Assembly: GCA_914767715.1 (NCBI GenBank)
Contig: OU612069.1
Location: 4,464,001 to 4,528,000 of the forward strand
DNA: 64,000 bases
Reading direction: 5' to 3'
Source: Membranipora membranacea
Taxonomy: Eukaryota; Bryozoa; Gymnolaemata; Cheilostomatida; Membraniporidae
Shown here piece by piece: positions 10,758 through 53,231 of the stretch (its first letter is position 1; every line of letters starts with the position of its first letter). The notes beneath the pieces were generated by a model. That model saw only the letters and a program-made list of their open reading frames with translations, searched no databases and was not told the origin of the DNA. The translations under genes and the position numbers were made by a program.

Positions 10758-10898
10758 CTCTCCGGAAGGCCAGTTAATCCACAGTAACTCGCATCTATAC
10801 TCTTCAATGATTGGATTTGCCCCAATGCTGCAGGTAATGTCTGTAGGCCTTCATTACAAGTAACATCTAACAACTCCAGTCCTGGCAGTGTGCAGATG
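10758..10898 (-). CDS. LRR exon 1: internal 141-bp exon with two leucine-rich repeats
   Basis: The exon encodes 46 complete codons plus split codons at each end. The first repeat is LPGLELLDVTCNEGLQTLPA followed by ALGQ. The second is IQSLKSIDASYCGLTGLPE. On the minus strand it is preceded by a pyrimidine-rich CCACCACAG acceptor and followed by a GTAAGT donor. It starts with one base completing a codon and ends with AG, so joining to another copy makes AGC (Ser) and gives a standard LP-S-I LRR boundary. Length and phase are identical in the other three exons. Motifs fit the SHOC2/Roco-like LP-type LRR class, a protein-interaction fold. The frame is intact, with no stop. The gene's other exons were not identified, so the full protein is unknown. 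Confidence 0.85.
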
Positions 10899-10969
10899 CT
10901 GTGGTGGATAAATGACGCAATGTTAAAATACCATGCAATACTGCTTGTCAGTTGATGGAGCAAACACAA

Positions 10970-11157
10970 TTGAGCAATGCATTCTATTAATATGATAGAG
11001 TTTTAGATTGATCAATTACCCATGTGAGTTGTAACTATCAGATAGAGATATCTGAATGAATTTTACCGCGCCTCTCCCAAAGCTGAGATTTATTGATATG
11101 ACACTGCGCTTCATAGGATAGTCAATTATGGCAGGTTCACATTCAAAAGCTAGAAGT
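10970..11157. repeat. Junction of LRR flank with a GC-rich segment fragment
   Basis: The conserved 5' intron flank of the LRR exon runs to about 11065. It then jumps into the right part of the GC-rich segment (compare 15595-15670). The right-hand part of the relic that flanks exons 3 and 4 is missing here, so a deletion or rearrangement has occurred. Confidence 0.5.
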
Positions 11158-11957
11158 TAGTTCATAACATTAAGAAAGTTTGGCAGTTCAATGATTCAAT
11201 GAAAAAGAAGCTGTGTTGATACCGTTTTTTAAGCACTCACCACCAGGTAAGTGGCTGACAGGATACCCGACCGTTAGCCTGTGTCCATGCGGACACAGTT
11301 GGGGGCAACCTGTACTGGACCGGTATAGACGGAAGGGCAACTTGTTTTATTGGACTGACCAATTTTGCTGAATAGGCATCGGCGGATAGTCAAAACGGAA
11401 TGCCCAACTGCTTCAGCTTGATCTGAAGCCTTTACCGACAGGCCCCTAGTGAAATTACATTATTGCTAGCAAGGTGCTTAGTTGACATTATGCTGAGAAC
11501 AGCTTATATTAAGAGATTGTATGTGCCAGTTAAAAGTCTTCATCCACAAGAAGAGATGTTAAAACACCACCTGTATTACTGACCCTTATTTGAGCAGACC
11601 AGAAAAGACCTAGATGAGCATGCATGCAATGACTGGTTCATGTTCTAGCTTGAATTTAAAAAACCTATCATAGCAAGCAAGCATTTTCACATTTACTACA
11701 CGGCACTTAGACATACTTCTTGTGTTACACTTGTTTAGACAAAGAGGGGAATAAGTGACAATAACAGCAGGCACTCCCATTATTATGTCATAAGACTGAT
11801 CAGTGTAAACAACCCTCAATTTCTAGCCCACATTTGGTGATGCTCGCTTCCTTTTGCCATCATTTATCTAAGCCATGTAGCTTGCGAATGCGACGCCCAT
11901 CGAATTAAGTCACAATATATTGAAACAGTCTTGTAGAAACCTGGTCTGCTCAAACAC

Positions 11958-12014
11958 CTGTTTTCTCTTGACATACTCATTCGAGAACAAACTACTGCAG
12001 CCTTTCTAGCATTC
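11958..12014 (-). other. Candidate 57-bp mini-exon
   Basis: On the minus strand, TTAAACAG is followed by 57 open bases (ARKAAVVCSRMSMSREN) and then GTGTTTG. The phase is the same as in the LRR exons (one base in, AG out). Copies at 14799-14855, 38018-38074 and 40810-40866 keep length, frame and both borders. Copies near 9757, 21235 and 29860 lose the donor. No family is recognised, and it may be only an old repeat. Confidence 0.2.
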
Positions 12015-14798
12015 CTGTTTAAGGAGAGCGAGGTGTGAAACTGCATAAAAATGACATAAAGAGGAAGCAATCGTACTTGGAAAATAGCCAGTCTTGTCTT
12101 TTCTCTTTACATGAGAGCTCCAATTCAGAATCGATCAATCAAACTTAATGTAGATGATCAATTGAAATGTGCGCATGATAAATATTTGTAGAGTTTCCAA
12201 AAAATTATATATACACAAAAGGAAGTTATTAAGTATTAAATCAAAATCAGAGTTCCCAATTTTAGGTTTTTTTCAAAAGACATATCATATTTATCCCTGT
12301 TGTCAGGGAACACCACGGCCACTGGGATTCAATAAAAAATTGAAAAGCAATAAATCTAATACAGCATATGTGCTCAATTAGTCTGTGTCCCAATCTCTTA
12401 CAACTCAGATATTTCTGTCCAGTGACCACCAATGCATTATAAGTAACACCAAACAATACTTAACAACTTTGTCAAGGTCTGTAGGACTATTATGATACAA
12501 TACAATTCATTTAATATATGTGGTATCCAGTCATTACGAAGTGCAGCGAAGTGAAAAAGTTATGTTTGTCATCTAACATGTCAGCTCTTTGTTGTTTGAT
12601 CTCAACCAAAGTTTGTATGCAGTACATGCTTGGCACTGAGAACTTTACTCTGAATAATATAAGAAAATATGGCTGCGTATATAGGAACTTACTGTATTAG
12701 CCAAATGATTACTGAAAATAAGCGAAGGCTCTCAAAAATGATTGATCCTACTAATATGTGCCTTTCCCTTGTACAGAGACAGCTAGAGATTGATAGTTGT
12801 ATCATCAAAGAATGCAGCAGTGTTTCCGTTGGAGGGGAGGGGAGCGGGGGGCCTCACAGCGCCTCTGTCAAACCAAAAAAGCTTTATCTCTTTAACCCAA
12901 GAGTTCATTTCGTGTTCCACTGTGCTGCACAGGATAGTCAATGAAGACAGGATCACATCTGAAAGCTAAAACTCCATCCTGATTAGGAAGCCCTAACCTG
13001 AGCAACCCTGATTATCAGAATAAACAACATTTTAAATGAGTTAGATTTAGATATTTTCATAATCAAAGCAATCTTAGAAGCTGTGCCCATTACATATTTT
13101 CTTAAGGATGTCAAATAACTCTATTTAAGTAAAAAAAATTTCGTACTTGTTAGTACATTTTAGTAATTACTACGAGATAATACACCCTAGGCATCGTAAT
13201 TTTGTACTTAATATAACTAATTGGTATTGGAAATCTCAGATTATCTTAATTTTTACCAGAAAGTGATGACGTAACAGAGTCATTTGCCCAATAATCAAGT
13301 TATTGATGTTCCTAAACTGGTTTGGCAGATCAAGCAACATTTATCAAGCTGGTCTACATTGCCATACAGAGCAGCGCCATCCTTTCTTGCACTAATTAAC
13401 AACATTCCAAGGCTGTGAATATCATTCTAGAACTCTGTTGGTTTGATGACTGCTGGCCTGATTCATACCTGGGGTGTATTGCTATGTAGGCAAATTGAGA
13501 TTTTCAATCCAAGAATAATTCTTGCCAAAGTAATTGTTATTATTATAATTACGAAATTATAGATTTACTTGGTTGTTTTATAAATACAGGATTTTCAAGT
13601 GGGAGATATGGAGTTAAAGTTATCACAAATATTTTCCTGAATTAATATCACAAAACATATTATTGTGATAAAATTATGGTTATTAATGTACTGTGCAACT
13701 ATCTGTTTGAAACTGTGTCGTTTGATTATTTAAGCCTGCATGACAAGAATAAGTACCACTTTTAACAGCATGATAAGAGCGTTTGAATTTGTAAGAACAG
13801 GATTCCGAATTTGGCAATACGTGGGCGTAGACTTGTGATACAGATAGTCGTTTGAACTTGATCTGTGCTGCCCAGTATTGCTTATTATTATTATGATTTA
13901 TTATGATATTGATTGTTTATTTTAGCCAATTCTTACATATTAAATGAAATTATTTTCAGTTGCATAGACTATGAGCCAGCCTGCCAGCGCGTCAGACAAT
14001 GAACAAAACTAATTAAGGAAGTATAGCCTCATATCTGATTGTGCATTGATACAATTGTAAATCGTTGATTTTAATTTTTAAACACCCACCCGAGGTGTGT
14101 GGCTGATGGGATTCGAAACGTTCCACGTTGACCATCTGTTGAACAAATTTAACGGGACAACCTGTACTAAAAAGGCATAAGCAGATGGAAAATTTGTTTT
14201 AATGGACATACAGTTTTAGCTGAATGGATAAACCAAATTGAATGGCGAATCTTTTTTCAGCTCAATGACCTCCTCCCACTTGCCCTACATGAAATTACAT
14301 TGGTGTCAGAGCATTTTTGGACTGATCAATCCAACAAGCCACCTGGGAAAGAGGTATGTGTTGGGTATACCATGAATTGGCTACATTGTTTTTATAGAAA
14401 CAGAGGGGTAACAAATATTACATAGTATACAACATGTATTATTGAACCTCATCGGGACAGACCTAAATAGACCAAGATGAACATGCATGCTATGGCTGGT
14501 TCATGCCACGAAGTTAAAATTAAAAAACCACTCAATTTATCCTTATATTAACTGATATGGCACTTGTATGCGCTTCTTGTGACACGCCTATTAAGACAAT
14601 AATAGGGGAATGAGTGGCAAAACAGCAGACTGATCAGTTTAATTTTTTCTCCCTCTCGAGCCCACATTTTGTGAAACTCACTTCATTTTGCAATCATTGA
14701 TATAAGTTTCATATATTTGCCAATGCAACGTCAATCAAACCAAGTCACAATTTATTGAAGCAGTCTTTTAGAAACCAGTCTTTTATTTGGTCAAACAC

Positions 14799-14855
14799 CT
14801 ATTTTCTCTTGACATACTCATTCGAGAACAATCTACTGCAGCCTGTCTAGCAATC
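14799..14855 (-). other. Candidate 57-bp mini-exon, second copy
   Basis: Same arrangement as 11958-12014, with a CTTATACAG acceptor and a GTGTTTG donor. The frame IARQAAVDCSRMSMSREN is open. Confidence 0.2.
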
Positions 14856-14985
14856 CTGTATAAGGAGAGCAAGTTGTGATACTGTTGAGATATTTGAATA
14901 CTAGATGTATAAAAATGACAAAAAGAGAAGCTACACACTCAAAAATCATAACCGTGAAATAATCCTTTGAAAGTATCAAGTTAAA

Positions 14986-15156
14986 GAAGATACAAATGTG
15001 TTTAAGTTTAATATTGATGCCATATTGCATACACAACAACCCGGCAGTGTCGAACAGATCCTGGCATATTTGAAATTTAGGGAAATTGGCGCAGTCATTG
15101 CACACTCGCCCTCAAGGCACACACTATTTCGCTGCCACGATGTGGTCAGTGACTAA
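14986..15156 (+). other. Coding-like unique fragment at a duplication edge
   Basis: Starting exactly where the segmental duplication ends, the plus strand is open for about 56 codons to TAA. It includes DAILHTQQPGSVEQILAY and later IGAVIAHSPSRHTLFRC. The composition is more protein-like than its neighbours and no other copy is in the window. It could be a fragment of a gene or of a mobile element captured at a breakpoint. Family unknown. Confidence 0.3.
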
Positions 15157-19100: not shown

Positions 19101-19770
19101 AGCATTACACAGGACACTTTTATGTGTAAATACCTAGAGATAATAATCAGCCTTCACTCTATTGTTTCTTGGGGGGTTAGGCACCACATCCATTGTAAAT
19201 TTAGTGCAAATGAAAATATTCTAAGAAGACAGGAGACACCTATACTTGTTTAGGTGAACAAACTCAGAGTAGTTCTCACAAGATGATAACAATAACGAAC
19301 GCATGTGAAATCACCAAGCAGGGTTTAAAGTTATGGTTAATCTATCACATCGGGCCTATTTTAAAACTGGCAATACACAGTATACAAAACAAGTAAAATA
19401 ATTGTATTTAAGTATTAACAGCTGAGAAGAAATGTGTTTCCCTGATCTGACAAAATTCTAGAGTCTAGAAGTTTTGAAATATTGCAACATAACACTTTGA
19501 TTGCTGTGTGTGCCCCTGTGCGATGTTAGATGGTTGAGATACAATGCTTGGATGCTGCTTGAAATTACTACTCTGTGACGGGGATTTGCAAGGTCTAGTT
19601 TCTATTATCAGTGCTAATAGTGTTGCTTGATGTGTAAATTTGCTGTAAATTTATGGTCTGGGGAAGATACTGCAACTTGGTAGCCTGAAGTTAGAAGAGG
19701 GATTCTCATAAGACTTGACAAGTTATCTTAAAGGTATTAAAATATTACGAAATTTTCTACCTCAACAGGT
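16150..19770. repeat. Module A, copy 2
   Basis: This is the most diverged and most deleted A copy. It keeps the longest plus-strand frame over the inverted-paralogue segment (17828-18103, with IVGNATSLEGVEAMMLSLIF). In copies 1 and 3 that frame is shorter or broken. It ends abruptly near 19745, where it joins the right half of module C rather than module B. Confidence 0.75.
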
Positions 19771-22867: not shown

Positions 22868-22907
22868 ATACAGTCTGATATAGTACTGTTGCGAGCATCT
22901 GACTCAC

Positions 22908-23048
22908 CTGTTTGGAAGGCTGGTCAAGCCACAGCCCTTAGCCTTTATAGTCTTCAATGATTGAATTTGCCCCAATTCAGCAGGTAATGTGTGTAGGCCA
23001 TAATTATGACTGACATCTAACAACTCCAGTCCTTGCAGTTTGGAGATG
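22908..23048 (-). CDS. LRR exon 2: internal 141-bp exon with two leucine-rich repeats
   Basis: Same length and phase as the other three. The first repeat reads LQGLELLDVSHNYGLHTLPA, the second IQSLKTIKAKGCGLTSLPN. On the minus strand CTCCTCAACAG precedes the exon and GTGAGT follows it. The scaffold leucines, Asn15, the LP motif at 21-22 and Cys39 (numbered from the first full codon) are kept. The predicted exposed positions differ from the other copies (SH, Y16, K35, K37, G38). No stop or frameshift. The expected partner exons are those at 33722 and 10758. Confidence 0.85.
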
Positions 23049-28350: not shown

Positions 28351-30101
28351 CAAGCAAAATCAAGCTGTGAATATCATCCTGAAACTTGATTTGAACCCTG
28401 CTGGCCAAGTCATACCTAGGGGATATCGCTATGTAGGCCTATAGAGATTTTCAATGGAAAATTATTTCTTGCCAAAGAAGTTTGTTATTATTTTAATTAC
28501 CAAATTATGGATTTACTTAGTTGTTTTTATATATACAGAATTTTCAAGTGGGAGATGTGGAGTGGAGGTCAACACAAATATTTTCCTGAATTGATATTGA
28601 AAACAATATTATTGTGCTATGGTTATTAGAGTAATGTACGGCTTTCGGTTAGGAAATGTGTCGTTCCCTTAATGAAGCCTGGATGACAAGAATAATAATA
28701 CCATTTTTAACAGCATGATTAGATCATTGGAATTAGTATGAACACAATTCCTAATTCAGAATTGTGTGGGTGTAGACTTGTGATACAGATAGTGGTGTGA
28801 TATGTGCTGCCAAAATTATATTCACATTTATTATAATTTTTATTTATCGTGTAATTCATTGTTTATTTAAGCCAATTGTTACATATTAAATGCAATAATT
28901 TTCAGTTACATATATTATGAGCCTGCCTGTCAGCATGTCCGACAATCAACAAACCTAATCAGGTGGTAACAACTGTGACAATGTTTAATTTCCTATTTTT
29001 TTACGGTATATACTTTTGAGAAATAATCTTTTTTAGCTCATATAATCGAGAAAGTGTAGCCTCGTATCTGACAGTGTATTTTGCAATGAAAAATAGAGCT
29101 GTATTGATACCTTCAGCAGGTACTGATTTTTGTATTTGATCACTCACTCACTGCAGCCGATGGAATTCCAAATTATCCACCTGTGTTCATGCGCCCTGTG
29201 CCCATCTGTTAGACATTGTTGGTGGGACAACCTGTACTGGACGGGTGTGGGCTGACGGGCAATATGTTTTAATGGATGGACAGGTTTTTGCTGGATGGAT
29301 AGACAAATAAGTATGGCCAATTTTTTCAGCAAAGTGTTTTTGGACTGATCAATTTAGCAAGCCATCTGGGGTAGAGGTGTGTGTTGTGTAGTGCCCCTAT
29401 ACTATGAGCTGGTTACATTGTTATAGACACAAAGGAGCGACAAAAAATTACATAGTATACCACCTGTATTATTGGACCTTATCAAAAAAGACCTAAATAG
29501 ACGGAGATGAAAATGATTGCAATGGCTGGTTCATGCCACAATCTTAAAATTAAAAATGATCATTGCATCCTCATATTAACTATATGGTACTTAGATGTTC
29601 TTCTTGTGTCACACTTAATTAGAGAATAATAGATGAATGATTGACAATAACAGCAGATACTCCCATTGATATGTCATAGGGCTGATCGGTTTAAACATTC
29701 CTTCATCTCTTGTCAACATTTTGGGAAGCTCACATCTTTTTGCAATCATTGATTTAAGTTTTAAATATTGCCAATGCAATTTTTATCGAACCAAATCACA
29801 ATATATTGAAGCAGTCTTTTAGAAAAAAGTCTTTGATTTGGTCAATCACTTTTCTCTTGACATACTCATTCGAGAACAAACTACTGCAGCCTGTCTAGCA
29901 ATCCTGTATAAGGAGAGCAAGTTGTGATACTGTTGAGACATTTGAATACTAGATGCATAAAAATGACAAAAAGAGAAGGTAATATTAATCTTAAAATGTC
30001 CAGTTATGTCTTTTCTCTTTTACATGAAAGCTCCAATTCAGTGTCAATCAATGGAAGTTAATAGATGGCCAACTTTGAATTGTGTGCATGATAAATATTG
30101 T
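28351..30101. repeat. Module D, copy 3
   Basis: Its part 29212-29851 is about 99% identical, without net length change, to the last 640 bases of the window. It ends at GCATGATAAATATTG, the point where a retrotransposon has inserted. Confidence 0.7.
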
Positions 30102-32284
30102 TATAAAATAAATAGACTAGGTAGTTCAGATCATAATCCTATCCTGCTGATTCCTAAATATAAACCTATTAGTAAACAGATATCTGAGAAAGTCAAGGTT
30201 CCAGTCAGAGTATGGAATGGGGAGAACACCGAAAAGCTGCTTTGTGCAATCGAAACGACTGACTGGAAAGTGTTGACGAGCCAAGTCAGTAATGTGTCTG
30301 AACATGCTGCAATCGTCACAGACTACCTAGCCTTCTGCCGCCCTAGACGATTGTATACCAACTGTCAACAGGGTCATTTCTAATGACAAATCTTGGGTGA
30401 CTGGTAAAATCAGGTCTCTCTTCAATGCTCGGTCTGCTGCACTCAAAGATCGAGATTTATACAAACTCCAATCCCTAAAAGCTGAGATCCAGAGAGAAAT
30501 AAGAGCTGCAAAAATATCTCATGCTAAGTACGTAGCCGAAGAATTTAAACCTAACAATACACGATCATGGCAGCAGCTGAAAAAGCTTCAAACAATAAAC
30601 AACTTCAAACTTCAAACAACTTCAACTTCAAACAGACAAACCAATAAACAACTAGCGAAAGAGTGTAACGTTGATCCAGACATTCTCAATGAGTTTTATC
30701 TGCGCTTTGAGTAGGTACTGCCACCTCCAGTATAACCACCAGCGGAAAGTGACGGGTGTCCTGAGATACGCGTAGATGAGGTCATCAAATGTCTACGTCA
30801 AACAGACCCAAAGAAAAGTCCGGGGCCAGATGGTATTCCTGGCAGGGTGCTCAAGATGGCGGCATATTCTCTGAGTCAACCTCTCTGTGATCTATTCAAC
30901 AGCTGCATCAAGCTGGGTGAGTTTCCACTAATATTAAAAAAACCGCTATAATAAAACCTATTCCTAAATCAAACACTGCCAACGAAGCCAAGGATTATCG
31001 ACCAGTGGCCCTTATGTCTATCGTGGCTAAAATATTTGAGAGGGTCACCAAATCTATGATATCTGGCTGTATGACGGACGAGTCCCAGTTAGCCTACAGG
31101 GAGCGCAGGTCTACAGAGAGCGCAGGTCTACAGAGGATGCACTAGCGATGTTACTTGATATATTTATTAACCATCTTGACTCCAACTCCAAAAACTATGT
31201 ACGCTGCTTGTTTGTTGATTTTACAAGTGCTTTTAACACCATTACCCCCAATACGCTGATGGACCAACTTGTAAATTCCCCCGACACGACGACATCAACC
31301 TTATATACAACTTCCTGACAGATAGGAGACAAAAGGTGAAAGTTAAAGGTCAATCCTCTGCTGTCAAAACAACATCCACTGGCAGTCAACAGGGATGCGT
31401 CTGGAGCCACTGCTATTCTTCATATATGTCAAGAATATGCCTGTACCACCATATGGTAACTACCACCTGATCAAGTTATGCAGATGACACTATCCTATTA
31501 GAGCTCTGCACACCTAAGACACCATCAACACTGGACTCAGCTGCGGAATTCCTCACTGACTGGTTTGTGCCAATGACCTCATACTAAATGGCACAAAAAC
31601 AAAGGAAATGATTATTAGTAACAAACGTGATAATCAAAGCTGTGATAGCATCATCATTAAGGGTACCGAGGTTCAACGAATCAATCAATTTGTATACCTT
31701 GGCACTTCTATTGACTCAAAGCTCACTTTTAAAGATCATGCCCAGTCTGTCGCTAGGAAAGCTAGAAAACGGCTTATTATTATGAAACATCTATCATTCC
31801 TCAAAGTGCCTAAACCAATCAGATTGAGATGCTATGTCACGTTCATTGAGTGCGTATTTATTTGCCGTCTGTGCACTGTTTATGGTCATATTATGTCCAA
31901 TTCATATGAAAAATCTATTGACAATGTGACCTCCACAGCAGGTTATCTAGCAGGATGCAGATTCTCCGACGTATCTGATATCTATGAACGTTGTTTTCAC
32001 AATAAGTGCCTTAGAATGTATGCCACTGAGAATGAGCCTCTTTTTGAGCTAGATAAGCTACCTTCAGGGCGCTACCGTGCCTTGAAGTGTAGAGTTGATA
32101 TTCGTAAAAACTGTTATAGAGCACAATGCATCAAATTTTTAATTAAAACATATTTCTAAGTATAATTTTATAATGGTACAACACTGCAACATTTTCATAT
32201 TATACAGTATTTTAATATTTTTATTATTAGCTCAACAGACGCTTTTATTTCGCAACAACTTGGCAGAGACAGAATAAATTATCC
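30102..32284 (+). mobile_element. 5'-truncated non-LTR retrotransposon (CR1/L2/Jockey-like), inactivated
   Basis: The insert begins inside the end of the apurinic-type endonuclease domain (GSSDHNPILL). It continues through a linker and the reverse-transcriptase motifs KKSPGPDGIPGRVLK (about 30800-30860), DYRPVALMSIVAKIFERV (about 30990-31040), motif A FVDFTSAFNTI (about 31208), the YADDTILL catalytic motif (about 31477), and a C-terminal YLGTSIDSKLTF region. A clean 183-codon frame covers 31608-32159. Several frameshifts and a short tandem repeat near 31097-31135 break the rest, so it cannot make a full protein. It sits between bases that are adjacent in the module copies near 10003 and 21480, which proves insertion. 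An imperfect ATAAAT repeat at both ends may be the target duplication. There is no poly(A) tail. Confidence 0.85.
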
Positions 32285-33721: not shown

Positions 33722-33862
33722 CTGTCTGGAAGGCTGGTCAAGCCACATCTCCAAGCCTCTATACTCTTCAATGATTGAATTTCCCCCAATCTCGCAGGTA
33801 ATGTCTGTAGACCCTCATTCCAAGGAACCTCTAACGACTCCAGTCTTGGCAGTTTGCAGATG
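33722..33862 (-). CDS. LRR exon 3: internal 141-bp exon with two leucine-rich repeats
   Basis: The first repeat is LPRLESLEVPWNEGLQTLPA, the second IQSLKSIEAWRCGLTSLPD. The CCACCACAG acceptor and GTGAGT donor are intact. Compared with exon 4 it has 28 differences in 141 bases, 24 of them in codons that change the amino acid. The 101 bases after the donor differ at only four positions. Changes cluster at codons 11, 13, 14, 16, 35, 37 and 38, around the LxxLxVxxN and LxxIxAxxC beta-strand motifs. The predicted role is part of a recognition surface in a multi-LRR protein. The cellular location is not shown by the sequence. Confidence 0.88.
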
Positions 33863-37095: not shown

Positions 37096-38017
37096 AGTTC
37101 ATAACATTAAGAAAGTTTAGCGGCACATCTGGCAGTTCAATGATGCAATGAAAAAGAAGCTGTGTTGATACCTTTAGTCGGCGTTGATTTTTATTTTTAA
37201 GCACTCACCACCAGGTAAATGGCTGACAGGATACCCGACCGTTAGCCTGTGTCCATGCGGACACAGTTGGGGGGACAGCCTGTACTGGACCGGTATAGAC
37301 GGAAAGGCAACTTGTTTTATTGGACAGACCAATTTTGCTGAATAGGCATGGGCGGATAGTCAAAACGGAATGCCCAACTGCTTCAGCTTGATCTGAAGCC
37401 TTTACCGACTTGCCCCTAGTGAAATTACATTATTGCGAGCAAGGTGCTTAGTTGACATTATGCTGAGAACAGCTTAAATTAAGAGATTGTATGTGCCAGT
37501 TAAAAGTCGTCATCCACAAGAGATGTTAGGGCCTGTGTAAAATTTACACAAATTTGGAGCAGTCCAGTGCTCTAAATAGCAAGATTGCTGTTGTATGATG
37601 ACTGTAATGACTGAATACTTTAAAACACCACCTGTATTACTGACCATTATTTGAGCAGACCAGAATAGACATCGATGAGCATGCATGCAATGACTGGTTT
37701 ATGTTCTAGCTTGAATTTAAAAAACCTATCATAGCAAGCAAGCATTTTCACATTTACTACACGGCACTTAGACGTACTTCTTGTGTTACACTTGTTTAGA
37801 CAAAGATGGGAATAAGTGACAATAACAGCAGGTACTCCCATTATTATGTCATAAGACTGATCAGTGTAAACATCCCTCAATCTCTAGCCCACATTTGGTG
37901 ATGCTTGCTTCCTTTTGCCATCATTTATCTAGGCCATGGATGTTGCCAATGCGACGCCCATCGAATTAAGTCACAATATATTGAAACAGTCTTGTAGAAA
38001 CCAGTCTGCTTAAACAC

Positions 38018-38074
38018 CTGTTTTCTCTTGACATACTCATTCGAGAACAAACTACTGCAGCCTTTCTAGCATTC
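38018..38074 (-). other. Candidate 57-bp mini-exon, third copy
   Basis: Same borders, length and phase as 11958-12014, with the frame open. Confidence 0.2.
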
Positions 38075-40809
38075 CTGTTTAAGGAGAGCGAGGTGTGAAA
38101 CTGCATAAAAATGACATAAAGAGGAAGCAATCGTACTTGGAAAATAGCCAGTCTTGTCTTTTCTCTTTACATGAGAGCTCCAATTCAGAATCGATCAATC
38201 AAACTTAATGTAGATGATCAATTGAAATGTGTGCATGATAAATATTTGTAGAGTTTCCAAAAAATTATATATACGCAAAAGGAAGTTATTAAATATTAAA
38301 TCAAAATCAGAGTACAATTTTAGGTTTTTTTCAAAAGACAGTTAATCATATTTATCCCTGTTGTCTGGGTACACCACAGCCAGTGGGATTTAATAAAAAA
38401 TTGAAAAGCAAGAAATCTAATACAGCATAGGTGCTCAATTAGTCTGTGTCCCAATCTCTTACGACTCAGATATTTCTGTCCAGTGACCACCAATGCATTA
38501 TAACTAACACCAAACAATACTTAACAACTCTGTCAAGGTCTGAGGGCCTATTATGAGACAATACAATTCATTTAATATATGTGATATCCAGTAATTACGA
38601 AGTGCAGTTAAGTGAAAAAGTTATGTTTGTCATCTAACATGTCAGCTCTTTGTTGTTTGATCTCAACTAAAGTTTGTATGCAGTACATGCTTGGCACTGA
38701 GAACTCATAATATAAGAAAATATGGCTGTGTATACAGGAACTTACTGTATTAGCCGAATGATTACTGAAAATAAGCGAAGGCTCTCAAAAATTATTGATC
38801 CTACTAATCTGTGCCTTTCCCTTGTACAGAGACAGCTAGAGATTGATAGTTGTATCATCAAAGAATACAGCGGTGTTTCCGTTGGAGGGGAGGGGAGGGG
38901 AGGGGGGGGGCCTCACAGCGCCTCTGTCAAACCAAAAACGCTTTATCTCTTTAACCAAAGAGTTCATTTAGTGTTCCACTGCGCTGCACAGGATAGTCAA
39001 TGATGACAGGATCACATCTGAAAGCTAAAACTCCATCCTGATTAGGAAGCCCTAACCTGAGCAACCCTGATTATCACAATAAACAACATTTTAAATGAGT
39101 TAGATTTAGATATGTTTATAATCTTAGCAATCTTAGAAGCTGTGCCCATTTCATATTTTCTTAAGGATGTCAAATAACTCTATTTAAGTAAAAAATCTTT
39201 TCGTACTTGATAGTACATTTTAATAATTACTACGGGATAATACACCCTAGGCATCGTAATTTTGAACTTAATATAACCAATTGGTAATGGAAATCTCAGA
39301 TTATCTTAATTTTTACCAGAAAGTGATGACGTAACGGAGTCATTTGCCCAATAATCAAGTTATTGATGTTCCTAAACTGGTTTGGCAGATCAAGCAAAGT
39401 TTATCAAGCTGGTCTACATTGCCATACAGAGCAGCGCCAACCTTTCTTGCGCTACTTAACAACAGTCCAAGGCTGTGAATATCATCCTAAAACTCTGTTG
39501 ATTTGATGACTGCTGGCCTGATTCATACCTGGGGTGTATTGCTATGTAGGCGAATTGAGATTTTCAATCCAAGAATAATTCTTGCCAAAGTAATTGTTAT
39601 TATTATAATTACGAAATTATAGATTCACTTGGTTGTTTTATAGATACAGGATTTTCAAGTGAGAGATATGTAGTTAAAGTTATCACAAATATTTTCCTGA
39701 ATTAATATCACAAAACATATTATTGTGATAAAATTATGGTTACTAATGTACTGTACAACTCTCGGTTAGAAACTGTGTCGTTTGCTTATTTAAGCCTGCA
39801 TGACAAGAATAAGTACCACTTTTAACAGCATGATAAGGGCGTTTGAATTTGTAAGAACAGGACTCCTAATTTGGCAATATGTGGGCGTAGACTTGTGATA
39901 CAGATAGTAGTTTGAACTTGATCTGTGCTGCCCAAAATTGCTTATTATTATTATGATTTATTATGATATTGATTGTTTATTTGAGCCAATTGTTACATAT
40001 TAAATGAAATTATTTTCAGTTGCATAGACTATGAGCCAGCCTGCCAGCGTGTCAGACAATGAACAAAACTAATTAAGGAAGTATAGCCTCATATCTGACT
40101 GTGCATTGATACAATGGTAAATCGTTGATTTTTATTTTTAAACACCCACCCGAGGTGTGTGGCTGATGGGATTCGAAACGTTCCACATGTGTCCATGTGC
40201 CCCTTGACCATCTGTTGGACAAATTTAACGGGACAACCTGTACTAAAAAGGCATAAGCAGATGGAAAATTAGTGTTAATGGACATACAGTTTTACCTGAA
40301 TGGATAAACCAAATTGAATGGCGAATCTTTTTTAAGCTCAATCCAACAAGCCACCTGGGAAAGAGGTTTGTGTTGGGTATACCATGAATTGGCTACATTT
40401 TTTTATAGAAACAGAGGGGCAACAAAAAATTACATAGTATACAACATGTATTATTGAACCTCATCGGGACAGACCTTAATAGACCAAGATGAACATGCAT
40501 GCTATGGCTGGTTCATGCCACGAAGTTAAAATTAAAAAAACGCTCAATTCATCCTTATATTAACTGATATGGCGCCTGTATGCACTTCTTGTGACACGCC
40601 TATTAGGACAATAATAGGGGAATGAGTGGCAAAACAGCAGACTGATCAGTTTAATTGTTCCTCCATCTCGAGCCCACATTTTGTGAAACTCACTTCATTT
40701 TGCAATCATTGATTTAAGTTTCATATATTGCCAATGCAACGCCAATCGAACCAAGTCACAATTTATTGAAGCAGTCTTTAAGTAACCAGTCTTTGATTTG
40801 GTCAAACAC

Positions 40810-43960: not shown

Positions 43961-44271
43961 CTATATCTATCAACACACTGACTTACTGACTCAATGTACA
44001 AACTATTGTGATGCTAAATTGGCTGACCATGGGCACTGATTTAATTATTTATTACACATGGTGATGCGGACTAATTTAGTTGCTAAACTTAGTCTCATCA
44101 TACTGCATTTTGTTCCGGACGATTTTTTGCTAATTGCTAAAATTTGATTAATTAATTATTTGAATTAATATTTTGCCTTATTGATAACTTCCCTCATACA
44201 AGGAAAGGTTGCTCAAAACAGTGCAACAAAATGTAATATAATAATAATAACAATAATAAAATGGAAAATTA
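43961..44271. repeat. AT-rich tail before a retrotransposon
   Basis: Matches 15900-16110 and 46260-46490 up to an ATAATAATAATAAC microsatellite, where the next element starts. Nothing coding. Confidence 0.55.
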
Positions 44272-45803
44272 GATTAGCCGGTGGCTGGATTGACTACCAG
44301 AGGGCGTACGATTTAGTACCACACTCATGGATCATTCAGACACTGAGAATGGTAGGGATGAATGAGAAAGCTTGGAGATTCCTTGAGACGAGCATGAGGA
44401 AGTGGAATACCAACTTGGAGTGCGGAGGCCGCACTCTGGCATATGTGAACAACAAGAGGGGATCTTCCAAGGCGACTCATTATTGCCCCTGCTTTTCATC
44501 ATGGCCTCATACTTCTGAGTGTGATACTACGAGAAGCGAAGCAAGGGTTCACACTTTCCAGACCTCCGTCAGGTAAGATAAACCACTTGCTCTACATGGA
44601 TGACCTGAAACGGCTAAAACAAGAAAGAACTGGAGTCATTGGTACAAACAGTCGGAATTTACACCCAGGATATAAGGATGAAATTCGGAATACAGAAGTG
44701 TGCTACATTAGTGATGAAGAGAGGGAAACGTGAACAGTATGAGGTGATATTGTTACCAGATGGAGAGCTGATGAAAGATTTAGGAGAACAGGACCACAAG
44801 TACTTAGGGGTGCTGGAAGCTGACGACATAAACATGAAAGTGATGAAGGAGAAAGTAAGGAAACAGTATTACAGAATATTGGAGACTGCTACTGGAATCA
44901 AAGCTTAATGGAGGAAACGTCATCAAAGCAGCAAACATATGGGCAGTTGCTGTCCTCAGATGCTCTGGAGGAATATTTGACTTGACAAAGGAGGAGCTTG
45001 AGGTGATGGACAGAAAACAGAAAAACTGATGACTATAAACAGAGTGCTACACCCGAGGGCAAATGTGGCAAGGCTATATTTGGCAAGAAATGAAGGAGGA
45101 AGAGGATTGAGAGCAGTGGAAGAAACCATCAGGATAGAAGAGCACGGACTATCGGATTATGTAAAACATGACAACAAAGGACTCAACATATACCCCACGA
45201 GTTTTGAGAGGAAAGAAACCAAACAAGAGTATAAAGACCGCAAGATGGAGGAGAAACAACAGGAATGGAAGAACAAAGCATTACATGGACAGTACACAAA
45301 GATAGCAGATCGAATAGACACCAAGAAAACGTACAAGTGGATAAAGAATGGCTACATGAAGAAAGAAACAGAAGGACTACTTATGGCTTTACCAACACGA
45401 TGGAAGAAAGTACATTTCGAGAAACAAGGAGGTACAGCACTGTATAGAACATGTAATGAGAGAGAAGAGGCCGTGTTTCATATACCCAGTGAAAGTTCAA
45501 AAAGAGCGCAGACAGAGTTTAAGAAACGGCAAAACAAGGTGTACAACTGATTCATTGGAATTTGTACAAAAGATACCAACTAGAACACAGGAGAAACTGG
45601 TACGAACAACAGGCAGAGAGCGTGACAGAAAATGAGAAAGCCAAGATCCTGTGGGACTTTACAATTCAAACAGACCACATCATACAAGCCCGCAGGCCAG
45701 ACATCGTCGTGCAAGACAAAGACATCAACCACACTTGGATCATTGATATAGCCGTCCCAGGAGATGCAAGAGTCACAGACAAGGAGAGGGAGAAGGTGGA
45801 AAA
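44272..45803 (+). mobile_element. Truncated R2/NeSL-type non-LTR retrotransposon with restriction-like endonuclease, inactivated
   Basis: It starts inside the reverse transcriptase: motif A WIDYQRAYDLVPHSW (about 44288), a frameshift near the GD(S)LLPLLF region, YMDD at about 44597, a second frameshift, then QKCATLVMKRGKRE and the thumb to about 44905. A frame at 45029-45550 carries LHPRANVARLYLARNEGGRG. The last frame (45562 onward) has the endonuclease signature RRPDIVVQDKD followed by IIDIAVPGDARV. The zinc knuckle between them has lost cysteines (Y..C......H...S), and stops separate the frames. It lies where two copies of the module C tail meet (43961 side and 45804 side), so insertion and local duplication are linked. 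Confidence 0.85.
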
Positions 45804-46544
45804 TTTGATCAAAGTAGTAGCGTTGATTGTCTTTCATTCTTTTGCTAATCTGCTAATCAATTTTTACCTAAGACCACTTCCAATATGCAGTAAATTTATT
45901 AATTTGTTTTCTAGGCTTTGGGAGTCAGGGTTCCACCCTGAATCCCGTATCGGGGGGGGGGGGGATGTGGACGGGGGGGATTAATTGATATGACACTGAG
46001 CGGCACAGGATAGTCAATGATGGCAGGTTCACATTCAAAAGCTAGAAACCCCCTGTTTAGGGAGCCCTAATCTGAGCAACCCTGATTGTCACAAAGAACA
46101 ACATGGAAAATAAATTATGGTGATCTACTAATAATATTAGTAAAATTAGTAATTGAAAGATCATTGAACTGAGGAAATTTTAAGTTTGCTAGGCCACATA
46201 ATCATGAAAACAGCATCATTTCGCTCTATTTTTCAGTAACAAAGTTTTCTTACTGTACAAATGGTTTTTATCTTTAATTGGTACAGAGTTGATTTATATT
46301 TACATGAGGTGATGAGGACTAATAAATTTGCTAAATATAGTCTCATCATACTGCATTTTTGTTCCAGTCGATTTTCTTGCTAATTGCGAAAAATAGATAT
46401 ATTTAATGAAACTAATATTATGCCTTATTGATAACTTCCCTCATACTATGAAAGGTTGCTCCAACATAAAAAATGATAATAATAATAATGAAAATTTAAA
46501 TAATAATAATAATGATATATGCTAGTATTATGCACACGTACTAT
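45804..46544. repeat. Second copy of the module C tail
   Basis: Resumes at TTGATCAAAGTAG (compare 15399). It includes a GC-rich segment with a GGGT-TCC-ACCC stem (about 45925) and a poly-G run, then an AT-rich tract with AATAATAATAATG directly before module A. No gene seen. Confidence 0.6.
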
Positions 46545-49500
46545 TGGATTAATGAGTATTGCCCCTCATGTGAATGGAAGAAGACAACTCCATAGAGCGA
46601 TCAAGATGTAAGGTCATTGATATAATATCTGATAGTTATTTTGTACCAAGTTTGCCCTGTATACTTAACAAAGTTTGAAAAGGTTACAGTCCCGTAGATC
46701 TAGAATAGGTCAGATGTATTCCATCATAGAAAGCTAAGTAAAGTAGATATTTCATGTCAGCTTGGAAAAGCTCCATTGGGCTATGTACTGAAATGCCGAT
46801 AAACTGCAAACCCAACATTAGGAGCATAGAGCACCATTGAAAAGTGCTGCTTTGCACCCTCAGGGATTATTACTTTCCCTATATTTTTTATAGATCAGTT
46901 TTTGAGAATTGGCACCGGTATTGTGATATTTCAGATAGTTTAAGTGTCACACAATATTATATCAAACGTAATTTTAATTCGGTAAATTGCAATTCAAATC
47001 TGTATGCAGCATTACTTTGAAGAGTATTAAGAAATCACATCATTTGCTGGTGTCTTGCTGAACATTGATCCAGTTATGCATCTTCCAAAACACTATTTCC
47101 AAGGTGGTATAGAAACATTGCGGCAGCAGAAATCATATCCCATTACACTCATGCTATTTTTTGACAGGACAATCCAATGCTCTAATAGCATTGGAATGAA
47201 AAGTACCACCATTATGGTGAGAGGAAGCACCGAACGTTGTGACAGTTTTATGAAAAAACATTACCACAATGCATCTCATTTTGAACATTATCAGTGGCTA
47301 TGAGGTGGTTGTCACATTATTATAAAACAAACTTCATGAGATGGTCATAAAAAAATGCTGTAGTGATGGAAGAACTGCTATAACATTGTTAATTTTTGAT
47401 AGCATGATCATAACATCATTAAAGTGCTAATAATTTATAAGCTGTTTTCTCACATTTAACAGTGATGTATCATCATGTCAAAAATAATGTTTGACTAATA
47501 CTTAGAACCAAAGAATCTGCTATAACTGAATCTGAACATTGTGATTACCATTCTGTATCCAATTAGACAATAACCCAATCCTATCATTTTCACAGCATGT
47601 ATTAATTAATAAATTTGTATGCAAAACATTGTTACAATGTTCACCGTTTGCTGGGTTTCTGACCTTCATTTGTAACAAGCAGTCAAACAGTTTTTAGGTT
47701 ATGGAATATAGGGATCACAAAAATTCCCAGGGATCAATATATTACTAGCATTTATAAACTTGGATTGTCCGCTTTTTGATAGGTAAACCATAAAGAATTA
47801 TTCATATATTTGATTATAAACCTATACATGACATTCTATGGATATTGAGGCACTGAGGGACTTCATTGTGGGCAACAAACATCATTGGAAGGTGTAGAAG
47901 CAATGATGCTATCATTGATTTTCTGTCCACAATCCACATTTTTTGATCATAACTCGATCAATTTTGATCGGATTTTGAGTTTGAAAATTTCAATAGGTTT
48001 AGCAGCTTATCTCATTTACGGCAAAACAGATTTGGAAGTCAGTGACTTGTTACCCCACAAACTTGATATACATATAGAAAGTCTTTCGTTCTGCTAAACA
48101 AAATCCACAAGAAATTCAGAAGAATAGAAACAAAAGACAGTGGATATTCTAGTTTGTATCAACTGATGTGTCTTTTGATTGAAAGCCCAGCAGTTTTGAA
48201 TTCGACACCCTATACTAAAATTAAATGTAAATGCTAATTTCATGTATCAAATTTGGCCCTCAAATCGATTCCACACCGAGATATGGAAAGGTAGTGACTT
48301 TGAAATAGAATTTCAATGTGCAAAAAATTTTGCTAAACTGAACTAATACTAAGCAAAAGTAATGGATAAAAATTCATGCAGCAGCAGTGAATTTTTGTCA
48401 ATTCTAACTTCAATAACATCCGAAAATTAATAAGTTTTATTATTAATACACACAATTAAATTTTATTTTGATTCTGTAAGGTTTTGGTAGCTTTGGTCTT
48501 AGCCTTGTATAATATGTATAAAGTTTCCTCTTTTTTCTCTATGATACTTTTGAATTTCTTGCCACAAGCTGGTATTGTTGGTATGTCGGGTAGATTCAGT
48601 AGGCTAGTGAATTCGCCATAAGGGCTAGGGGACTTGACCCTACCAATTTTCAGCGTGTCAATTTTGAAAAACCTCTTGTTTTTAATTACCGGGTGCCCAG
48701 AGGGCCTCATTGTGAGATTATTTGGAATTATGAATGAATTACGCTAGTTTACTTGGTGCAATAGCCAATTACCATGATTTTCCCCATTGACTGCCCTTAA
48801 AAGACGATATCATCATGATATTCTTGTGACGTAGAAAAGATGTCTTTTATATGTTCGTGCCTACAATCTGAGCGAATAACTATAGCCAACGTCGCTAGGC
48901 ACTGATTTTCTTCATCCTTGATTTGGGTACACCAATCTACACATATTTACAATTAAGACCAATAAAACGATGGTCTTTTATAAAAGACTCAGGAAATCAA
49001 ATTTGAGTCCACAGTTGCAAACAATTTGATATGGTCTTCTACTATATAGCTAATCTGCAGGAGTGAACTCTCACTGCAGGAGCCATTGAATATTCTCAGA
49101 GTTGACAATAACAGGATAATCTCATTTATTTAACCCACCATACACAGACCATTTATAAGAAATTTTTATAAAGGAACATTACACGGGACACTTTTTTGAG
49201 TAAATACCTAGATATAATAATCAGCCATCACTCTATTGTTTCTTGGGGGATTAGACATCACATCCATTGTAAATCTAATGTAATTGAAATTATTCTAAGG
49301 AGACAGGAGACACCTATACTATTGTTTAGGTGAACAAGCTGAGAGTTGTTCTCACAAGATGATGTCTCAATAACAATAACAAACCCAGGTGAAATCACCT
49401 AGCAGGGTTTATGGTTATGGTTAATTTATCACATTGGGCCTATTTTAATAATGGCAATACACAGTATACGAAACATGTATACAGTTTGTATTTAAATGTT

Positions 49501-49884
49501 AACAGCTGAGAAGAAATGTGTTTCCCTGATCTGACAAATACTAGAGTCTAGAAGTTTTGAAATTTTCCAACATAACGCAGTGGAATTGCTGTGTGTGCCC
49601 CTGCGCGATGTGAGATGGTTGAGATACGATGTGCTTATAGTGTTGCCTGATGTGTAAATTTGCTGTAAGGTTATCATCTGGGCAAGATACTGAAACTTGG
49701 TGGCCTGAAGCTAGAAGGGGCAAGCTCATAAGACTTGACAAGTTATCTTACAGGTATTAACGTAATCAAGAGTGTACTGTGATCACATTAACCCCCTTCA
49801 TGTGTACTGACATGCCTTAGCTAAAAAAATGAATAAATCTGCCGGTCCCTGTTTTAGAATCCCAATAATTCTCTGTCATGTGGA
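46545..49884. repeat. Module A, copy 3
   Basis: Closely follows copy 1. It lacks the stretch equivalent to about 1260-1690 and the one equivalent to 2425-2530. It keeps the glutamine-rich frame (47055-47303) and the inverted-paralogue segment (47815-48060). Ends by joining module B at a deletion near 49885. Confidence 0.75.
48456..48710 (-). CDS. Short conserved open frame of unknown function in module A, copy 3
   Basis: This is an 84-residue version of the frame at 2528-2713, with one substitution in the shared part (HLV to HPV). It is extended because the bases that supply a stop in copy 1 are deleted. The added tail is lysine/threonine rich and probably not original. Function unknown. Confidence 0.25.
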   Translation of the reverse strand: MRPSGHPVIKNKRFFKIDTLKIGRVKSPSPYGEFTSLLNLPDIPTIPACGKKFKSIIEKKEETLYILYKAKTKATKTLQNQNKI

Positions 49885-51256
49885 GGTAATTGTATCATTG
49901 TATTATGCTGAGTGTGAGGCCTCTGTACAAGTCAATTCTTTTCATTGTTTCAACTTTTGGTAAACAAAAGAATCCTTTAAACGCTGTGCCTGATTCTTTT
50001 CAATAGAGAATAAATGTAGCATGTCAGCTTGCATCCAAAGTTTATATGAGTAAACTGAGAATAAATGTTAAGAAATGCTGCATTAAATGAAGGGAAAAAA
50101 CGATAGAGTGACCCTAAAATATTTATCTATTCGCAACGTCACAACGAGGTCAGACAAAAAATTTGACGCTTCTAGCATTTTTAGAAGTGCAATTTAATTG
50201 AGTCATCTGGTTAATAAAAGATAATGTTTTGCCAACATTTCATCATGTTTTATGAAATTCATGATTTTTTGCATTCATTTCGTGGATTAAATAGTAATTA
50301 AACCACCAAGCCTGGACAATAACTTTCAATCATTTTGTGATGGTTTCTGCATCAAATTTAAAAATAATGTAGGGGGAGATAAAAAGGAAACCATATAAGT
50401 CACTGAGAAGCAGATATAACATCAAGTTGATAACAAGATGCTGCTGTTTGTTAAGTAATTTCGAAACTCAAAATCCGATTAAAATTGATTGGGTTATGAA
50501 CACAAAACCTGAATTGTTAACAGTAAACCAATGATAATATCATTGCTTACTACACCTTCCAATGACGTTGAGTCGCCCACAATTGAGTGCCTTACTCTAG
50601 CTATATGTAGTGTCCTGTCTAGGTTTATAATTAAGACTATCGGTGCAATTGATTATGTTACAAAAATTAATAGAAATTAGTTATCATATTTAAATTAAGG
50701 CGCAATAGTCTAGTATTTACCCTGAAATATACAGCCTATATCTTGCTCATAAAATTGGTCACAGCTCTAGAGTGTCACAATACATAAATTAGCAATATTT
50801 ACATCTAAACCTATCTAATTTATAATCATGTAGTTGAGGGACAAAAAATAATTCTGCTAGATATTTTGTTATCACTCGCACATACAAATCTCCTGCAAAT
50901 AAGTGTAGGTATACTTTTAATCTTTACCAGTAAGGGGATGACCTAATGAAGTCATTTGCCGAACAATCAAGTAGGCCTATTGAGATTTTCATTCTCGGAA
51001 TATTTTTCCATAAAGTAATTGTTATTATGATAATTACCCAACTATGGATTTAATTGTTTCTTTTTATAAGAATAATACGGAATCTTCAAGTGAGAGATGT
51101 GGGATGGAAGTCAAAAAAAGTATTTTTATATAGAAAAACATGTTATTGTGATATGGTTATTAGAGTATTTTGAGCAATAGTAGGGCTTTCGGTTAGAAGA
51201 TGTGTGTTTGCCCATTTAAGCCTGCATTACAAAACTAAAATCCATTTTTTACAGCA
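49885..51256. repeat. Module B, copy 5
   Basis: Contains the inverted-paralogue segment (about 50410-50680) and the GTAATTGTTATTATGATAAT stretch. It stops at TTTTTACAGCACAG, where an insert begins. No gene seen. Confidence 0.7.
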
Positions 51257-52540
51257 CAGTTTGAGGAATATCTTTCGCTCCTGCACATTGTTAATGTGAA
51301 TAAGGGGTCGGATACAAGGCGTTTTTAAAAAAAATGCCTAAGTTTACATAGACATTACTTTGTAACCAGTTGTGCTATCCACAACCTGTAAAAATAATTG
51401 AAATTTCTAGCACTTTTTCTGTTATGATTTAAAATTTGGTATGCCTTGGACAATGCATGTATACAAGCTGCCCATTGACCTAGGAGAGGAATAAAGCATT
51501 TGTGATTTCTGAAGTTTTATTTTCAAACTCACTTTAGGACATTTAGATACAGTTCAGATCGACCAATAGGGTGTCTGAGTTGGATTTATATGCACAGATG
51601 TGTTGTTTATTGATTTGCGATTCTTTATCATATGATATTTATTGCTGTTAAGCCGAACTTACATAAAAACAGCAAAAAATGATTGTTATGGATTTGGAAA
51701 AAAATATTTTCTGATGATCAAAATATTATTTTAGTTTTCGATAGTAAAAACAAAAATGATTACCATATGTCACAAGTATAAGTCACCATCAGAGTTGTCA
51801 ATCTCACCAACATGACTGACTACTACCTGCTCCTGAGGTGCTGCTCTGCCTCAACCAGCTCCCCTATGTCGCCCCGCCCTCCCTGTCCAGCCCCAACTTT
51901 AGCAACTTGTCGTGGTGGGGAGCCTGAAACATCAAAACAGGAAAGCGTGTTATGTTGTTGTGTATAACATGTGAAATACAATAATTGTTACACAAAGGTG
52001 TGTGGCTTATACTTTATACTGTATTGGGGGGGGGGAGACTTACCATCAAAATCTGAATCATTGACAAATTGAAGGTCAGGTGAACGACATTTTTCTCATA
52101 TATCATGTTATGATTTAGGAATTTTATTTCAGATTCAGATTCAGATTCACCATAATTTGTAACCCTACTCACCTCATTTTCAGCATCAAGCTCTGAGCCA
52201 ACTCCTCCTGATCATTCATCAAGCACACCAGACTCATGAATCCTAGTCCTAGAGCTTGCCATTGAAATATCTGTGTGACTGAAATCTTTTGAAGTCCTAA
52301 CTTGAGTTATATTTTTGAAGTGAAAGCAAAGTGAGTCCCCAAATAACTTTTCTAAAACTCTACCCAATCACATAAGAGTATGAGGAAGATGATCCAATAA
52401 AAATTGTGAAGAAAAAACTGCACTATCATTGGACATTTGTTTGTCATAGTGACTGAACCTATATTATATCTGTCATTAGGATTGTACCACACACTGCATG
52501 AATGCGTATATATGCGTCATTAGGAGGCAATGAGTGTTGA
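51257..52540 (-). mobile_element. Unique 1.28-kb insert with an exon-like minus-strand frame
   Basis: Module B copies run from TACAGCACAATTGG to AGATAATTCC within about 40 bases. Here 1.28 kb intervenes and about 25 module bases are lost. The minus strand has an ATG at 52262 and the frame MASSRTRIHESGVLDE, then one TGA, then SGGVGSELDAENE and an acidic SESESE tract. A second piece ends VNDSDFDG at a GTAAGT donor (52044), in phase with a TTTCAG acceptor at 51923. That acceptor opens a glycine-rich stretch (51827-51923). Acidic starts like this are common in transposases, but I do not recognise a family. A G-run lies near 52026. Confidence 0.5.
51827..51923 (-). pseudogene. Candidate exon of the insert
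   Basis: Preceded by GATGTTTCAG on the minus strand. It reads SPPRQVAKVGAGQGGRGD followed by IGELVEAEQHLRS, then a GTAGTA donor or TAG stop. It is GC-rich, unlike its surroundings. The phase matches the donor at 52043-52042. There is no intact downstream exon, so it is probably a relic. Confidence 0.3.
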
Positions 52541-53090
52541 AAGATAATTCCTAATTTAGCGATATGTTGGTGTTGACTTGTGAAACAGATAATGGTGTGA
52601 ACTTGATCAGTGCTGCCAAAAAAAATGAATTCACAATGGTATTCATTGTATATATGCAGCAAATTGGTACATATTGCATTTAATTATTTTCAATAACTTG
52701 GACTATGAGCCTGTCTGCCAACATGTCTGACAAACAACAAAACCGATTAGGTGGTAACAACAGTAAATATATTGTCTTTTTGTCCTGTGACAGTAACTAA
52801 TGTCTCTTTTTGTTTTTGCAAATACTTTTGAGAGAGCAACTGCTTAGGTTCATAAAATTAAGAAAGTGTAGCGGCACATCTGGCAGTTCAATCATTCAAT
52901 GAAAAATCAAGCTGTGTTAATACCTTTAGTTGGTGTTGATTTTTATTTTTAAGCACTCACCACCAGGTAAGTGACTGACAAGATACCTAACCCAGTCATA
53001 GCAAACTTCAAGAGAAATCACCAGACTCAGAGAGAACAAACTAATTGTACAAAAAGTCTGATATACTACTGTTGCAAGCATCTGACTCAC
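52541..53090. repeat. End of module B, part of module D and relic fragment before LRR exon 4
   Basis: Runs from AGATAATTCCTAATTTAGCG to CACTCACCACCAGGTAAG (about 52958). It then jumps into the relic fragment whose last 101 bases (52990-53090) differ at only four positions from 33621-33721 beside exon 3. Confidence 0.6.
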
Positions 53091-53231
53091 CTGTCTGGAA
53101 GGCTGGTCAAGCCACAGTCACTCGCTTGTATACTCCTCAATGATTGAATTTCCCCCAATCTTGCAGGTAGTTTCGTTAGGCCTCTATTGTCATGAACACA
53201 TAACGACTCCAGTCCTTGCAGTGTGCAGATG
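53091..53231 (-). CDS. LRR exon 4: internal 141-bp exon with two leucine-rich repeats
   Basis: The first repeat is LQGLESLCVHDNRGLTKLPA, the second IQSLRSIQASDCGLTSLPD. The CCACTACAG acceptor and GTGAGT donor are present. All scaffold positions match the other three exons. The exposed residues C11, H13, D14, R16, T19, Q35, S37 and D38 make this copy the most different in the first repeat. As the most upstream copy on the minus strand it would come first of the four in a transcript. The exon before it was not found in the remaining 10.8 kb of the window. Confidence 0.88.

Follow-up and report, generated by a model that had tools for sequence, protein, structure and literature searches.

Hypervariable leucine-rich repeat exons in a predicted LRR-ROC-COR-caspase gene cluster of the bryozoan Membranipora membranacea

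Four exons on the minus strand of a 64,000-nucleotide stretch of the genome of Membranipora membranacea (hereafter the window; C5:4464001-4528000 of genome G000, C5 being contig OU612069.1 of assembly GCA_914767715.1, in a 339-Mb genome of 18 contigs) each encode two leucine-rich repeats (LRRs). They probably belong to the LRR array of a gene with a predicted LRR-ROC-COR-caspase (ROCO) product, one of at least 19 such genes in a cluster, which would make them pieces of cell-death receptors. Matches to Wnt (47) and to the innexin family (55), each absent from all 14 control genomes, mark the genome as an animal's. Wnt is known only from animals. Innexins are not known from sponges, which told against a sponge as host, and the Pfam innexin family takes in the pannexins of vertebrates as well; the size of the genome and the number of matching places point to an invertebrate.

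The LRR exons of the window

An earlier note on this DNA had described four minus-strand 141-bp exons with a two-LRR pattern, and a reading of the exons bears this out. They lie at positions 10758-10898, 22908-23048, 33722-33862 and 53091-53231 of the window, and each encodes 47 amino acids between an AG acceptor and a GTAAGT or GTGAGT donor, with phase 2 at both ends. With such ends the split codon AG|C gives serine back on joining, and the addition, loss or move of a 141-bp exon stays in frame. At the sites treated below as hypervariable (12, 14 and 15 in the first repeat; 36, 38 and 39 in the second) the four exons read, in the order given, D-T-C / D-S-Y, D-S-H / K-K-G, E-P-W / E-W-R and C-H-D / Q-S-D. 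Pairwise nucleotide identity is 78–82 per cent, and tblastn matches between different exons have E-values of 1e-15 to 4e-19, so that their likeness is not due to chance. No fifth copy was found in the 64-kb window by tblastn or profile search, and the nearest C5 copies of exon 33722-33862 outside the window are 90–94 per cent identical to it in protein.

The count of 26 of 46 positions unchanged in all four exons is right for residues and wrong for codons, of which only 16 of 46 are identical. Four kinds of residue do occur at positions 13, 14, 35 and 38 of the earlier numbering (14, 15, 36 and 39 in the 47-position numbering used here), and three kinds at 11, 16, 19, 24 and 37; position 46 of the earlier numbering, absent from that list, also has three.

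Variable sites and selection

The earlier note had placed the variable residues mainly on the exposed face of the LRRs and had named as its refutation a scatter of variable sites across many aligned copies. Among 78 distinct intact exons, compared over 47 positions, variation is found mainly on the concave face, and the same pattern recurs in a gene on contig C3. Entropy is highest at sites 15, 39, 14, 36, 38 and 12, in that order (2.6–3.4 bits), all six of them on the concave face; these are the same three positions of each repeat, offset by 24, and in the LxxLxLxxN motif they stand at and just after the strand (a hand comparison with the predicted model of the relative P0003, described below, puts the strands at exon positions 10-12 and 34-36). 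The eight concave positions picked from the LRR motif have a mean entropy of 2.51 against 0.47 for the other 39, a value reached by none of 100,000 random sets of eight positions. Site 17, which is not among the eight, ranks seventh with 2.26 bits. On C3 a different ROCO gene with 141-bp exons has seven positions that stand out, namely the same six and 17. The set compared there comprised nine distinct exons, of which eight satisfied the splice rule and the ninth was recognised by profile alone; it excluded a duplicate, two fragments, one exon that is a residue longer and the LRR unit at the head of the Roc exon.

The ratio of nonsynonymous to synonymous rates (dN/dS) was obtained from parsimony counts on three trees, with the eight concave sites as one set and 38 others, without site 17, as the rest. 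On a tree of 26 loci made from intron flanks only, 114.8 nonsynonymous and 3.2 synonymous changes fall on the concave sites (dN/dS 7.4), against 56 and 48 on the rest (0.39). The corresponding ratios for 78 exons are 3.7 and 0.46 on a tree of 80-bp flanks, and 3.1 and 0.56 on a tree that includes the exon. Judged by these counts, the concave residues are under diversifying selection and the remaining exon is under purifying selection, in agreement with the earlier proposal of a diversifying recognition surface on a fixed scaffold (3.1–7.4 on the concave face, 0.39–0.56 elsewhere).

Comparisons of close relatives give a similar picture. In 15 exon pairs with a flank divergence below 3 per cent (mean 1.7 per cent), drawn from 218 pairs whose flanks align over 800 bases or more, nucleotide differences amount to 25 per cent in the six variable codons and to 2.4 per cent in the remaining exon. 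Across an alignment of 27 loci, the first two bases of the six codons differ in 52 per cent of comparisons and the introns beyond the splice sites in 26–28 per cent (bootstrap ratio 1.6–2.3), the far flanks aligning poorly; near the exon the introns differ by about 6–18 per cent per 30-column block.

Some of the results do not favour selection. With all 47 sites pooled, dN/dS is about 1 (0.99, 1.09 and 1.31), and recombination among the exons makes the p-values obtained from trees too low. In the six codons third bases differ in 45 per cent of comparisons, with variation at sites 12, 15, 36 and 38, against 15 per cent in other codons, and synonymous change at these codons runs at 1.4 and 2.1 times the rate of the rest in the two 78-exon trees. 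These last observations would be expected if the six codons were hypermutated in a targeted way, with or without selection in addition, as would one exon pair with a flank divergence of 1.0 per cent over 3003 bp, in which 7 of 18 hypervariable nucleotides differ against 1 of 123 others. Hypermutation of this kind is nevertheless very improbable, given that the synonymous rate at the six codons is 0.7 times that of the rest in the 26-locus flank tree, that their nonsynonymous rate is about tenfold that of the rest in all three trees, and that third bases are nearly fixed at site 39 (C in 70 of 78 exons) and site 14 (T in 68 of 78) while the first two bases vary. Many of the third-base changes at variable codons also alter the amino acid (GAT/GAG at site 12). 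The tenfold nonsynonymous rate and the near-fixed third bases indicate that selection accounts for most of the variation; locally raised mutation or short-tract copying may add to it, and hypermutation as the sole cause is disfavoured.

The ROC-COR and caspase domains

A search for the Roc-COR domain suggested in the earlier note found it 3' of the array, and with it a caspase. A long 3' exon on the same strand opens with one further LRR unit in the phase of the array, and then encodes ROC and COR; by this shared phase the LRRs stand N-terminal to ROC, as in ROCO proteins. In gene 1 of the cluster (the gene of the window being gene 2) this exon matches Roc (PF08477, 3.4e-6, above the curated cut-off) and carries the P-loop GKTKAGKTS in frame. 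Roc and COR-A are the only Pfam families at E < 0.001 in a scan of the Roc exon; the NACHT or NB-ARC ATPase that defines an NLR is not among them within that exon. The sequence relatives of the Roc-COR exon in the PDB are LRR and Roco chains (E 1e-6 to 6e-4). That COR follows directly on ROC is indicated by the COR-A match, by PF16095 in the precomputed annotation of P0001 (a metagenome open reading frame (ORF) 99 per cent identical to the exon) and by the predicted fold of P0003. The latter is a public-metagenome relative, 52 per cent identical to the Roc-COR exon, which was folded alongside 15 others with a mean predicted local distance difference test score of 76; its best Foldseek match is the LRR-Roc-COR structure of CtRoco (E 6.6e-19, template modelling score 0.46 by query), with LRRK1/2 next.

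Small exons within about 2.5 kb 3' of Roc-COR in gene 1 read as caspase. Joined by hand they match PF00656 at 3.9e-29 over profile positions 1-227 of 233, with CED-3 as the nearest PDB sequence; a predicted His-Cys dyad (SHGD and QACAG) is in frame, and both the p20 and the p10 part appear to be present. There are 13 class I Roc-COR matches on C5, 96–100 per cent identical in protein and with stop-free frames of 662–694 amino acids, and 1.1 kb 3' of each of the 13 lies a caspase exon 95–100 per cent identical. From Roc-COR through caspase, gene 1 and the gene of the window are 99.1 per cent identical over 4860 bp. This identity includes the introns, so that the Roc-COR-caspase end is recently copied or homogenised. 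Six further C5 matches (class II) are 45–46 per cent identical to the class I query, and the one class II gene read at its 3' end has caspase-like exons at 3.4e-4 (just under cut-off) and 2.4e-6.

Gene structure and the C5 cluster

By strand and order the whole window (1-64000) is an intragenic stretch of one minus-strand LRR-ROC-COR-caspase gene, assigned to the nearest downstream Roc-COR. Upstream of the window the same rule places a cap LRR exon (G000:C5:4567773-4567916) and variable LRR exons at C5 4548823, 4537375 and 4531911; downstream it places one more variable exon at 4454152, the Roc-COR exon at about 4437793-4435872 and a caspase exon at 4434806-4434570, all on the minus strand. 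The gene would thus extend at least from 4567.9 to 4434.6 kb, with cap, eight variable exons, Roc-COR and caspase in order and its LRR exons about 5–21 kb apart.

The earlier note had proposed to look for more copies on the contig; exons of this type, those of the window included, number at least 95 on C5 between 4.17 and 7.62 Mb (about 3.5 Mb; 48-amino-acid query, counted by hand). This is a lower bound, the best 150 of 1475 candidates having been scored and 95 of these being of this type on C5. Of the 95, 86 were read and nine left out; 81 of the 86 are intact (AG, GT and no stop), all with 141 bp, phase 2-2 and very similar splice sites. The same stretch has at least 19 Roc-COR exons (13 class I, 6 class II), in 17 genes on the minus strand and two on the plus strand, and genome-wide there are at least 79 Roc-COR matches (two of them parts of one place) and at least 150 caspase-exon matches. 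The distinct cap exon (SVCSLKEL...) occurs at 20 places in the cluster at 60 per cent identity or more, among the matches listed; between them they represent 17 of the 19 genes, three genes having two, and by hand comparison of positions every cap is 5' to the variable exons of the gene it belongs to. With a cap 5' of each array the cluster is many genes and not one pool, and a single giant gene is rejected in view of the 19 Roc-COR exons and 20 cap exons.

If the copies were mainly pseudo-exons in decay, spread by segmental duplication and transposons, stops and lost splice sites would be expected, and among the 86 exons one does have a stop and four show no GT where the donor should be; a retroelement piece also lies between exons, one of seven tested window ORFs having a reverse-transcriptase-linked match. 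With 81 of 86 exons intact, dN/dS of 0.39–0.56 outside the variable sites and all 13 class I Roc-COR frames stop-free, this is scarcely credible, and pseudogene decay is rejected on the intact exon frames.

The exons are exchanged between genes. For 14 of 81 exons the closest relative belongs to the gene that they are in (4.9 when shuffled, p 0.003), and for 51 of 81 it belongs to the same Roc class (46.7 when shuffled, p 0.23). Two pairs of one class I and one class II exon show full identity, 80 bp of flank included; window exon 22908-23048 forms one such pair with the exon at C5:5886322, assigned to a class II gene. The lack of class bias and these identical pairs argue for movement between genes that are 45–46 per cent identical in ROC-COR. 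Nine first-repeat motifs are paired with more than one second-repeat motif, which could come from recombination or point change.

Several further observations concern the cluster and its relatives. Four LRR exons at C5 4191120-4206894, one of which bears a stop codon, recur about 1.8 Mb away at 5994948-6010724 with their spacing almost unchanged (8.28, 3.71 and 3.65 kb), perhaps as a recent segmental copy. Further Roc-COR clusters lie on C3 (18.9-19.4, 22.0-23.7 and 25.6-26.1 Mb), C1 (33.7-34.4 Mb), C11 and C10; their matches are 44–61 per cent identical to the C5 class, and several have caspase matches close behind. LRR exons in one C3 ROCO gene start about 280–480 bp apart. Long runs of caspase-exon matches on C9 (0.2-2.5 Mb), C8 (18-24 Mb) and C11 (0.6-1.5 Mb) lie away from the listed Roc matches and are perhaps a separate caspase expansion.

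Other DNA in the window is repeated too, at 73–97 per cent identity per block of at least 300 bases, some blocks taking in LRR exons. A 2.7-kb repeat without an LRR exon stands at 11559-14266 and 37620-40342, 26 kb apart and 94.7 per cent identical. Open-frame pieces that by inspection resemble remnants of retroelements without long terminal repeats are found on the plus strand at 29967-32159, 44169-45984 and 54457-55359, within introns of the receptor gene. Pfam gave a single match among the seven window ORFs (zf-RVT, 2.5e-5, under cut-off, in piece 54457-55359) and none in the other six, and an Rfam scan of the window gave nothing at the gathering threshold.

Proposed function and its weighing

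The earlier suggestion of a recognition or immune receptor whose repeats multiply in the genome is supported by the selection pattern, by the Roc-COR and caspase domains and by the exon copies. If the four exons are joined in one transcript, as their order suggests, the LRR solenoid would bind a varying non-self or self-marker ligand, and binding would shift the GTP state or the dimerisation of ROC-COR. In known ROCO proteins ROC-COR is a GTP-dependent dimerisation unit. Linked caspase domains would then activate one another by proximity, leading to cell death or inflammatory cleavage, and the receptor would be a single-polypeptide counterpart of the inflammasome. New specificities would arise through germline duplication and recombination of exon-bearing segments, together with point substitution under selection.

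The ligands are presumably microbial. Allorecognition in place of anti-microbial sensing, with the LRRs reading polymorphic self markers and the caspase killing at incompatible contacts, is conceivable and rather unlikely; either reading is compatible with a diversifying recognition face coupled to an enzyme of cell death. Fungal NLR-type incompatibility genes likewise kill at incompatible contacts.

It might also be expected that so uniform a set of exons serves combinatorial alternative splicing, each gene yielding many receptors in the manner of Dscam or the ROCO genes of brown algae. Any subset of the 81 intact exons, being alike in length, phase and splice sites, would stay in frame, the wide spacing of the LRR exons in the window's gene is in keeping with this, and in Ectocarpus the LRR exons of ROCO genes are reported to be alternatively spliced (PMC11378527). 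Against it, every array has its own cap and 3' end, as in ordinary genes, and combinatorial splicing is a minority prospect. Similarly doubtful is the broader notion of a repertoire system, in which the two-LRR exons of these roughly 100-kb genes would be alternatively spliced or somatically rearranged before a constant GTPase-caspase end; if true, many different receptor surfaces, each a direct trigger of death, would be expressed in every cell or individual.

Germline-encoded LRR-ROC-COR-caspase receptors remain the preferred reading, against which a number of points must be weighed. The chain is read from genomic sequence, exons were assigned to genes by strand and order, and ligand binding, GTPase cycle and protease activity are predictions. 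The COR-A match in gene 1 (3e-5) is under the Pfam cut-off of 35.3 bits, and the class II caspase end was read in one gene, the first of whose two pieces is below the Pfam cut-off. Two of the 19 genes have no cap exon among the best 150 of 1315 candidates scored. Finally, two splice rules applied to 18.2 kb upstream of the cap in gene 1 brought to light no N-terminal exon, one rule giving a single 18-amino-acid candidate and the other none. The C3 ROCO gene has an open frame with a phase-2 donor end and no Pfam match before its LRRs, and as a query against the same 18.2 kb this frame gave no convincing match.

Comparison with known systems

Lamprey variable lymphocyte receptors consist of LRR cassettes followed by an LRRCT cap, are secreted or anchored by glycosylphosphatidylinositol and are somatically assembled. 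The present array is not of this system, since it runs into ROC-COR and not into an LRRCT cap.

A close likeness is to the ROCO genes of the brown algae Ectocarpus and Saccharina, which have single-LRR 72-bp phase-2 exons that are shuffled and alternatively spliced, with positive selection at four sites of the concave LRR face (Teng 2024, PMC11378527); shuffled LRR exons in brown-algal LRR-ROCO genes are also the subject of Zambounis (2012). Common to both systems are short phase-2 LRR exons before ROC-COR, gene clusters of candidate immune receptors, exons of fixed length held by several genes (here 141 bp in 81 of 86, mixed across classes) and positive selection on the concave face (here dN/dS 3.1–7.4 at eight sites). 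The bryozoan exon differs in its 141 bp and two LRRs, and its genes in belonging to an animal, in having a caspase where only LRR-ROC-COR is reported for the algae, in exons up to about 20 kb apart and in a homogenised effector end.

The domain order itself recalls prokaryotic conflict proteins built on an AP-GTPase (Roc) and COR, which combine LRRs with C-terminal effectors of at least 24 kinds, caspase being one (Kaur 2021, PMC8195603). They share with the chain predicted here LRR, Roc, COR and caspase in one protein, fast-evolving LRRs and a predicted role in cell-suicide immunity; the animal genes differ in their many exons, modular LRR exons and megabase cluster. In amphioxus, LRRs-caspase and TNFR-caspase hybrid genes (Zhang 2008, PMC2575513) likewise fuse animal recognition repeats to a caspase with a QACXG motif, and as there described are without ROC-COR or a hypervariable exon array. 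Trichoplax has at least 17 ROCO genes, with LRRs and CARD, death and TPR partners (Civiero 2014, PMC4104024), and so resembles the present case in its animal ROCO expansion with LRR and death-fold domains; neither a caspase domain nor an exon array belongs to them as described. TIR proteins that carry ROC and COR are known from Aplysia (PMC9334734).

A literature search that covered few subscription papers found no animal LRR-ROC-COR-caspase genes with modular LRR exons, and the combination of modular hypervariable LRR exons with such a chain in an animal appears to be new in the literature surveyed. ROCO proteins are best known through LRRK2 and Parkinson disease. The genes described here suggest that in some animals they serve as recognition receptors, in a large family whose members carry their own executioner; the constant/variable design of the genes is clean and testable. 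The predicted system would unite three things met only apart in the literature surveyed: modular LRR exons of the algal style, an LRR-ROC-COR-caspase chain of the bacterial style, and an animal gene cluster with a homogenised effector and a diverging recognition face.

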